Shown here piece after piece: positions 44,142-46,916 of a stretch of DNA of 64,000 nucleotides. The stretch spans positions 62,001 through 126,000 of the forward strand of contig JAAKEZ010000006.1 in NCBI GenBank assembly GCA_018475625.1. The letters run 5' to 3'. Both the position numbers and the translations under genes were made by a program. Position 1 is the stretch's first letter. Each line of letters starts with the position of its first letter. Below the pieces are notes generated by a model. It was not told the DNA's origin and ran no database searches. It worked only from the letters and a program-made list of their open reading frames with translations. This DNA comes from Candidatus Bathyarchaeota archaeon A05DMB-2. GTDB lineage: Archaea > Thermoproteota > Bathyarchaeia > Bathyarchaeales > Bathycorpusculaceae.

Positions 44142-44951
44142 CTAGACGGTTCCAGCTTTCACCTGTTCAAACAGGTTTTCGGCTTCTTCCGGCGTGTAAC
44201 CATCGTGAATTATGGCTCTAATCGCTCTTATTGCGGCAACTGGGTGGTCAGTTTGCCAGATGTTCCTACCTAAATTCACGCCTATAGCGCCTTTCTGCAT
44301 GCCGTCATAGACGAAGTCGAACACTTCGCGTTGGGTATCCACTTTTGGTCCGCCAGCTATAACCACAGGTACTGGGCAGCCCTCAACGACCTTGTCAAAT
44401 TTTTCTTGGCAGTAATAGGTTTTCACCACTCTGGCTCCGATTTCAGCTGCCACGCGGCAGCACAACGCCAAATAGCGTGCTTCACGCTTCTCAAGTTCCC
44501 TGCCGACAGCTGTAACAGCCATCACCGGTATCCCATAATCCTCACACTGATCCACCAGTCTCGCCAAGTTTGACAGACTCTGGTGCTCGTACTTGCTGCC
44601 CACGAAAATGGACATGGAAACAGCGCTTGCGTTGAGGCGTATAATTTCACGGATGGATGTTACCAAGTTTTCGTTGGCTAAATCCTCGCCGACAACGGTT
44701 GCCGCACCTGAGACACGCAGAATGATAGGCTTAGTCTTTGTAGGGTCAATGCAGTTTCGGAGCACGCCACGTGTCATCATCAACGCGTCAGCGTACTGCC
44801 ACAAAGGCTTTATGGTTTCGCCGGGTTTCTCCAGCTTATGTGTAGGTCCTTGGAAGTATCCGTGGTCAATCGGTAGGAAAAGTGCTTTGCCGTCAGCTTG
44901 AATTAGTTGAGCTAAACGATTTTTCATTCCCCAATCCAATTTATGTCTCAC
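44142..44951 (-). CDS. LsrF-like class I aldolase/thiolase
   Basis: 269 residues of the DhnA/LsrF group. It strongly resembles bacterial LsrF (3-hydroxy-5-phosphonooxypentane-2,4-dione thiolase) as I recall it: LDWGMKNRL, PIDHGYFQGPTHKLE, GSKYEHQSLSNLARLVDQ and the Schiff-base lysine in GARVVKTYYCQEKF, then CPVPVVIAGGPK. The GTG start at 44951 starts just before LDWGM. No other lsr genes are present, so an AI-2 role is unlikely; a pentulose- or aldol-type reaction coupled to the downstream dehydrogenase is a guess. Confidence 0.85.
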   Translation of the reverse strand: MRHKLDWGMKNRLAQLIQADGKALFLPIDHGYFQGPTHKLEKPGETIKPLWQYADALMMTRGVLRNCIDPTKTKPIILRVSGAATVVGEDLANENLVTSIREIIRLNASAVSMSIFVGSKYEHQSLSNLARLVDQCEDYGIPVMAVTAVGRELEKREARYLALCCRVAAEIGARVVKTYYCQEKFDKVVEGCPVPVVIAGGPKVDTQREVFDFVYDGMQKGAIGVNLGRNIWQTDHPVAAIRAIRAIIHDGYTPEEAENLFEQVKAGTV

Positions 44952-45113
44952 CGCGGAACCTTTGGATTCAGAATTAAATAAGCTTTTGTTTTAGCTGCAA
45001 AAATTTGCAGTTTTCGCAGATTATCGATGGCTCAGGCACTTAATCTTGCTTTCGAATAGTTTATCAATCTGATTCCAATCCGAATAAAGCATTGACTGCA
45101 GGGTTGATGGGTT

Positions 45114-46916
45114 TTGGAGTCGGTCTGCGCGTTAAGATGTCCTGTCTGCGGAATTGAAATAGACCCGGAAAATGTGGAAACCAGAATGCAGATGACATAC
45201 GACACCTTTGGAGGAAAAAAATACTGTTTCTGCAGTAAAAACTGCAGGCAGCACTTCATCGAAGACCCCAAAATCGCATACTTTTCCATGGAAATAGGAA
45301 TCGCTAATGATATCCCAACGTACAGTGGTGGACTAGGCGTTTTGGCAGGCGATATCGTGAAAGCAAGCGCAGACTTAAGGCTGCAGATGGTAGCGTTAAC
45401 ACTGGCAAGCAGAAAAGGCTACTTCAAGCAAAAAATTACCCCAAGCGGCGAACAACAGGAGTTCCCGGACGAATGGGATCCGTCTAAATCCTTGTTTTTG
45501 ATGCCAAAGACAGTCACTGTAATGATTGAGGGGCGTCAGGTGAAAATTCAGGCTTGGCTTTACGAGCACCAAAGCCCCACTGGTGGCATGGTTCCGATAC
45601 TTTTCTTGGACACCGATTTGAAGGAAAATGCGGCAGAGGACAGAGGCATCACAGATTATCTTTATGGTGGCGATAAGCGGTACAGGCTTAAGCAGGAGAT
45701 TGTTCTGGGAATAGGCGGAGTAAAACTTCTCAAAACATTAAATTTCAAAGTCAGGAAGTATCACATGAACGAAGGTCATTCTGCCCTATTAACTTTTGAA
45801 CTGTTAAAAGACAATAGTTTGGATTCTGAGAGAGTTAGGAACCTTTGTGTTTTTACAACGCACACGCCTATCGAAGCGGCGTTTGACCAGTTCTCGTATG
45901 ATTTGGTTGAGCAAGTTCTAGGCAACGATTATATGCTTTCAACATTGAAACAGTACGCTGGACCAGATAACCTGAACATGACTTATCTGGCTTTGAACTT
46001 AAGCAAGTACGTGAACGGCGTTTCCAAGTCCCACATGGAGTATTCAAGGAAGCTGTTTCCAGGGCACTACATAAGATCAGTGACAAACGGGGTTCACTCT
46101 TTCAGTTGGACCTGCCTTGATTTCAGAATGCTTTTTGACAAATACATTCCAGGCTGGGCAACCGAACCTGTTTTGCTCGTGAAAGCCATGGACATTCCGA
46201 ACCATGAGGTGTGGGGTGCTCATATGAGGGCTAAGATGAAGCTCATGGAGTTTGTCGAGAAAAAAGCAGGAGCGAAGTTAGACCCTGAGGTTTTGACGAT
46301 TGGTTTCGCCAGAAGAGCGACAGGTTACAAGAGGGCGACGTTGATTTTTTCTGACCTGCACAGGTTGTTGGATGTGAATAGACGAGGAAAGATCCAGATG
46401 GTGTTCGCTGGAAAAGCGCATCCTCGGGATGAAGATGGTAAGCGTATGATACGGGCGATTTATGATTACGCGCATCAGTTGAAGGACGAGATTAAAGTCG
46501 TTTATCTTGAAAACTATGATATGGAAATTGCTGGTAAGCTTACTTCGGGAGCGGATGTTTGGCTTAACACTCCTGTTCCGCCCATGGAAGCTTCCGGGAC
46601 AAGCGGGATGAAAGCAGCTCATAATGGTGTGGTGAACTTCAGCGTTCTGGACGGCTGGTGGCTGGAAGGGTGTGTTGAGGGCGTAACTGGCTGGTCAATC
46701 GGTCCACATCCCAAAGATTTTGTTACCGAATCGGAGAGGAAAGAGGTTGAACTGCATGACTTGTACAGTAAACTGGAGTACTTGATTGTTCCGACTTTTT
46801 ACGGCCAGAGGGATGCGTGGATAACTTTGATGAAGAACTCGATTGCCAGAATTGCTCATTACTTCCAAATTCAATGGGTCATGCGCAGATACATAACTGA
46901 AGCCTACATCATTTAG
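45114..46916 (+). CDS. YHS domain fused to alpha-glucan phosphorylase
   Basis: 600 residues. Residues 8-50 are a YHS metal-binding domain (RCPVCGIEIDPENVETRMQM, then FGGKKYCFCSKNCRQHF). Immediately after comes a GT35 phosphorylase: KIAYFSMEIGIANDIPTYSG, GLGVLAGDIVKASADL, YHMNEGHSALL and the PLP lysine in EASGTSGMKAAHNG. The enzyme releases glucose 1-phosphate from glycogen-like glucan. The usual N-terminal region of about 90 residues is replaced by YHS. TTG 45114 is the only start that keeps the first CPVC knuckle. A debranching enzyme gene lies at 61 kb. Confidence 0.9.
   Translation: MESVCALRCPVCGIEIDPENVETRMQMTYDTFGGKKYCFCSKNCRQHFIEDPKIAYFSMEIGIANDIPTYSGGLGVLAGDIVKASADLRLQMVALTLASRKGYFKQKITPSGEQQEFPDEWDPSKSLFLMPKTVTVMIEGRQVKIQAWLYEHQSPTGGMVPILFLDTDLKENAAEDRGITDYLYGGDKRYRLKQEIVLGIGGVKLLKTLNFKVRKYHMNEGHSALLTFELLKDNSLDSERVRNLCVFTTHTPIEAAFDQFSYDLVEQVLGNDYMLSTLKQYAGPDNLNMTYLALNLSKYVNGVSKSHMEYSRKLFPGHYIRSVTNGVHSFSWTCLDFRMLFDKYIPGWATEPVLLVKAMDIPNHEVWGAHMRAKMKLMEFVEKKAGAKLDPEVLTIGFARRATGYKRATLIFSDLHRLLDVNRRGKIQMVFAGKAHPRDEDGKRMIRAIYDYAHQLKDEIKVVYLENYDMEIAGKLTSGADVWLNTPVPPMEASGTSGMKAAHNGVVNFSVLDGWWLEGCVEGVTGWSIGPHPKDFVTESERKEVELHDLYSKLEYLIVPTFYGQRDAWITLMKNSIARIAHYFQIQWVMRRYITEAYII

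Follow-up and report, generated by a model that had tools for sequence, protein, structure and literature searches.

Glycogen phosphorylases are textbook allosteric enzymes, which respond to nucleotides, phosphorylation or HPr. The GT35 enzymes of the type TIGR02094 include the glycogen phosphorylase of Segatella copri (structures 9l6i and 20yr) and the maltodextrin phosphorylase of Thermococcales (NF041129). TRASH domains, which are related to YHS domains, serve in copper sensing by archaeal CopR and occur also in the chaperone CopM (PMC7830388). The archaeal cop cluster comprises the ATPase CopA, the TRASH chaperone CopM and the HTH-TRASH proteins CopR/CopT. We know of no description of a glycogen-degrading enzyme as part of a cop cluster.

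An enzyme with a copper-responsive YHS domain has been described from Mycobacterium phlei: its adenylyl cyclase is activated by 1–10 µM Cu2+, requires the YHS domain for this response, and carries the ligands D178, C181, C204 and C208; copper acts through binding and not through oxidation (PMC4626032). According to the same paper, the YHS domain of toluene-4-hydroxylase was solved without metal; this counts against a metal-binding role. YHS and GT35 are known families, and their combination is unnamed in the literature searched, which omits some journals: no paper there names a YHS domain together with a phosphorylase, none describes a metal-sensing glycogen phosphorylase, and no relevant paper on YHS with glycogen was among the matches listed.

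The fusion protein and its two domains

The window, i.e., the whole stretch of 64,000 nucleotides from Candidatus Bathyarchaeota archaeon A05DMB-2 that was analysed, contains on the plus strand a complete gene with a TTG start (45114..46916, stop included), whose single open reading frame codes for both domains in one protein of 600 aa. The fusion of YHS and GT35 proposed in the initial annotation was borne out by domain searches, which placed Pfam YHS (PF04945) at aa 10–53, with 23.4 bits in the full protein, and TIGR02094 (NCBIfam) at aa 54–598, with 527.9 bits versus a cut-off of 191.7 and coverage of profile positions 1–598 of 600. The isolated N-terminal segment yielded 27.8 bits (E 2.5e-6), a little short of the curated cut-off of 30.3 bits; many fused relatives score above the cut-off, e.g., with 54.5 and 53.9 bits, and all of the 20 aligned homologous N-termini matched Pfam YHS (best E 4.6e-15).

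The catalytic region (45273..46907, plus strand) aligned with solved phosphorylases at Asn325 (TNGV), Arg401 and Lys406 (RRATGYKR), Glu492 to Lys500 (EASGTSGMK) and His250 (HTP), and these motifs were invariant across the 61 sequences of the alignment. Lys500 (46611..46613, plus strand) is the predicted PLP-binding residue, since its motif corresponds to EASGTSNMK in a bacterial phosphorylase of solved structure; the phosphate site RR-x3-YKR aligned with KR-x3-YKR of that enzyme. In a Foldseek search the structure model was closest to the S. copri enzyme (E 4.9e-45, TM 0.81 on the query). Because motifs and fold both match those of solved phosphorylases, the protein should be an active phosphorylase.

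It differs from the TIGR02094 enzymes by its N-terminal YHS domain. In the S. copri enzyme, some 105 other residues precede the aligned core, whereas the nearest archaeal relatives have none. The further suggestion that the YHS domain replaces an N-terminal region of the phosphorylase was not upheld: the nearest unfused proteins, from Bathyarchaeia, Methanosarcina and Nitrospirota, have only a few to about 27 residues ahead of KIAYFSME and possess no N-terminal domain, so that YHS is an addition, and the protein is a short-form phosphorylase with an extra domain.

An AlphaFold2 model from 61 alignment rows had a mean pLDDT of 86.7 and a pTM of 0.88, with about 70–92 (pLDDT) in the YHS core, although just 20 of these rows contained the domain; an earlier model, built on the 20 fused rows alone, reached a pLDDT of only 71. 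The YHS/TRASH domain (aa 9–50; 45138..45263, plus strand) was modelled as a knuckle, a hairpin (28–39, with strands 28–32 and 35–39) and a helix (42–50), which reaches the core strand 53–57 via about two residues. With so short a linker, domain and core would be coupled.

Predicted metal ligands are two pairs on the plus strand, Cys9 and Cys12 in C-P-V-C (45138..45149) and Cys40 and Cys44 in C-S-K-N-C (45231..45245), and they satisfy the pattern of Asp or Cys followed by three Cys. The four columns read C-C-C-C in the clade of the window protein and D-C-C-C in most other fused proteins. Position 40 is Asp in three proteins (L026, L046, L047) and position 44 is His in the Methanosarcina protein; the sole change to a residue not of the ligand type is Asn12 instead of Cys12 in L040 and L007. 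Column conservation thus points to a quartet of C/D9, C12, C/D40 and C/H44, and the fused domain probably binds copper or zinc. When solved structures were searched with the YHS profile, the results were limited to marginal zinc-finger matches and L24e.

Distribution, origin and linkage to copper genes

The window's order (Bathyarchaeia) was represented by 163 genomes, of which 71 had such a phosphorylase and about 34 its fused form; in 398 genomes across the phylum, matches spanning YHS and core were confined to this order. Beyond the phylum, the best 80 loci of a collection scan contained the fusion in the Asgard archaeon Borrarchaeum (two copies) and in Methanosarcina sp. 2.H.T.1A.6; since only the best 80 loci were covered, more distant fusions could be missed. 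The fusion is evolutionarily conserved, and the sequences place it in three archaeal phyla.

In a tree of the catalytic domain, every fused protein fell into one clade of 28 (SH-aLRT 96), within which two unfused members, L053 and L091, were nested beside L040. The tree topology indicates one gain and one loss. No YHS remnants were detected in any frame upstream of L053 and L091; the ligand loss in L040 (Cys12 to Asn) and the loss of the whole domain in its sisters form a decay series. Several genomes with a fused gene, including that of the Methanosarcina isolate, keep an unfused paralogue as well, which fits a specialised role of the fused form. One YHS-phosphorylase (L165:1510-2058, G501:C12) is shortened to 182 aa and lies near TRAM-domain-like and thermosome genes; this copy is probably decaying, in a genome that also holds the YHS-less L053.

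Four lineages carry a separate YHS (CopM-like) gene at most 3 kb from the fused gene, and in three of them the copper ATPase CopA is also nearby. In Borrarchaeum (L164, L197) the fusion takes the divergent slot beside copA: it is transcribed away from the gene for a CopA-type ATPase, behind which a YHS protein of 50 aa is encoded. In G441 (L184) the genes for CopA, YHS, a PfkB kinase and the fusion are co-directional and separated by about 33, 33 and 160 bp. The Methanosarcina locus (L199) has the YHS gene at 3 kb and CopA at about 6.5 kb; in Bathyarchaeum (L178, L189) the YHS gene is 169–207 bp from the fusion, with an ArsR/SmtB metalloregulator gene beyond. By chance, 0.25 loci with a YHS gene within 3 kb would be expected versus the four lineages found (P 1.2e-4; 0.68 expected at 10 kb, P 0.005); the expectation was computed from YHS sites per genome, lineages and not loci were counted, the distance limit was picked after inspection of the data, and contigs were incomplete. 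Unfused phosphorylase loci showed no such neighbour (0/20), and the comparison with the fused loci (about 5/34) is by itself not significant.

The 33 genomes that carry fused genes contain 48 short YHS open reading frames, and 20 of these are no more than 500 bp away from a heavy-metal P-type ATPase, in agreement with the published cop cluster containing CopM (PMC7830388); the fused YHS domain is of the kind which serves copper handling in these genomes. Several members of the fusion family are linked to cop genes by gene order, i.e., encoded with CopA/CopM in Borrarchaeum, G441 and Methanosarcina. The window locus differs in lying outside such a cluster: no copper genes were present within 10 kb there or at most other fused loci. 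In a paper on the copper response of P. furiosus, the main text is silent on phosphorylase, glycogen and glycolysis. The P-type ATPase adjoining L046 and L047 was left uncounted, since it scores as a proton pump and not as a copper pump.

Two further observations concern these surroundings. The genes in G441 (L184:10200-18414) belong to a metal island, where CopA-YHS-PfkB-fusion adjoin PadR, a regulator of the DtxR-FeoA type, FTR1 and FeoB. In Bathyarchaeum (L050, L052, L054) a GH57 amylase, the YHS-phosphorylase, a hybrid-cluster (prismane) protein and ArsR/SmtB are conserved neighbours.

Possible metal control and alternative explanations

Metal or redox control of glycogen breakdown, as suggested in the initial annotation, is plausible; the conserved ligand quartet, the copper-sensing YHS domain of the cyclase and the linkage of several fused genes to cop clusters speak for it indirectly. 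A metal-responsive phosphorylase appears to be the best explanation, with a probability of roughly 0.45. The domain would hold one soft metal ion via residues 9, 12, 40 and 44, most likely Cu+ in the Asp-type majority and copper or zinc in the all-Cys clade of the window protein, which could have moved to zinc. As the helix 42–50 is only about two residues from the core strand, metal binding would toggle the phosphorylase between states of higher and lower activity. Glucan would then be converted to glucose-1-phosphate according to metal status, in a step which needs no ATP, and the glucose-1-phosphate released could, for instance, fuel ATP-driven copper export. The M. phlei cyclase resembles the fusion in having YHS on a short linker to a complete enzyme and in the layout D/C-C-C-C (D-x2-C ... 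C-x3-C); it differs in being another enzyme, with a C-terminal YHS domain and a linker of 8 residues, and the copper response demonstrated for the cyclase is a prediction for the fusion. The repeated adjacency of relatives to copper-export genes hints that metal may control the timing of the use of stored sugar. A more specific version is rather unlikely: that a CopM-like domain turns the phosphorolysis of glucan on or off in response to cytosolic Cu+, so that energy reserves and copper efflux would be tied together directly, and that some lineages encode the enzyme within the cop cluster. Metal control, if true, would connect copper homeostasis with the storage of carbon in uncultured archaea. 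The idea is directly testable, since the isolate Methanosarcina sp. 2.H.T.1A.6 has both forms of the gene.

As the chief alternative, the domain could be a structural zinc finger of the treble-clef type or a docking module, which would stabilise the fold or mediate contacts with partners or within an oligomer, as does TRASH in the ribosomal protein L24e, and would sense nothing. Related matches of the YHS part to L24e and FCS/MYM fingers, the four cysteines of the window clade, as in L24e, and the almost linker-free junction with the core in the model would all suit it. Yet unfused orthologues of the same family work without the domain, the majority of members are Asp-Cys3 and not Cys4, and the linkage to cop genes is left unexplained. 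We regard a purely structural role as possible, if somewhat doubtful.

It is improbable that the phosphorylase gene simply landed by a CopM-like gene and was fused by chance, with the neighbourhood as a relic and the domain of little or no function. Such an origin would accord with the short YHS genes directly adjoining fused genes in Bathyarchaeum and with the one lineage in which ligand loss was followed by domain loss. The YHS part, however, is under purifying selection, and the ligand columns were kept across a deep clade in three phyla, where replacements are still Asp or His.

A redox switch can also be envisaged, in which disulfides among up to six cysteines of the window clade (C5, C9, C12, C38, C40, C44) would gate activity. 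The extra cysteines of this clade are in its favour, but neither C5 nor C38 is conserved (L034, L128), most members have three Cys and Asp only, and in the cyclase precedent copper acted through binding rather than through oxidation; a redox switch is thus very improbable. Two redox proteins were seen near fused genes, a CoA-disulfide-reductase-like flavoprotein convergent with the fused phosphorylase (L034:5964-7421) and a dihydrolipoyl dehydrogenase about 3.4 kb upstream of the fusion gene in the window; they belong to different families and hence do not represent a shared redox partner.

Reading frame and neighbouring genes

The window gene starts with TTG, without an ATG at this place, which might suggest that the true start is the ATG of codon 25 or 27 further downstream, with an untranslated YHS part, or a join due to an assembly error; this is close to refuted, since the TTG aligned exactly with the homologous ATG of L034, substitutions in aa 1–53 are codon-structured, and the identical join occurs in dozens of independent assemblies, among them that of an isolate. 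Compared with L031, the stretch for aa 1–53 of the window gene showed no differences at first and second codon positions and five at the third, all synonymous, and compared with its relatives mostly third-position substitutions, the same pattern as in the catalytic part. The ATG match and the codon structure show that the YHS part is translated in the same frame; a downstream start and a frameshift were thereby ruled out.

Most fused genes have neighbours from central carbon metabolism: pyruvate kinase at seven loci, PGK and enolase alongside a protein of the phosphohexomutase type, and further a GlgA-like transferase and GH57. Two unfused phosphorylases (L055:2007-5641, L056:2015-5662) are situated behind phosphofructokinase and an HPr-kinase-like gene, a glycolytic setting unlike the fused ones.

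In the window, the divergent neighbour is an aldolase of the DhnA/LsrF type (44142..44951, minus strand; PRK08227, 372 bits, above cut-off). An LsrF-type thiolase (PRK08227) is not expected in an archaeon. The intergenic stretch between aldolase and fusion gene (44952..45113), which occurs in the same divergent arrangement in L031 and L033, would be a promoter region shared by both genes. A threonine-dehydrogenase-like Zn enzyme adjoins the aldolase.
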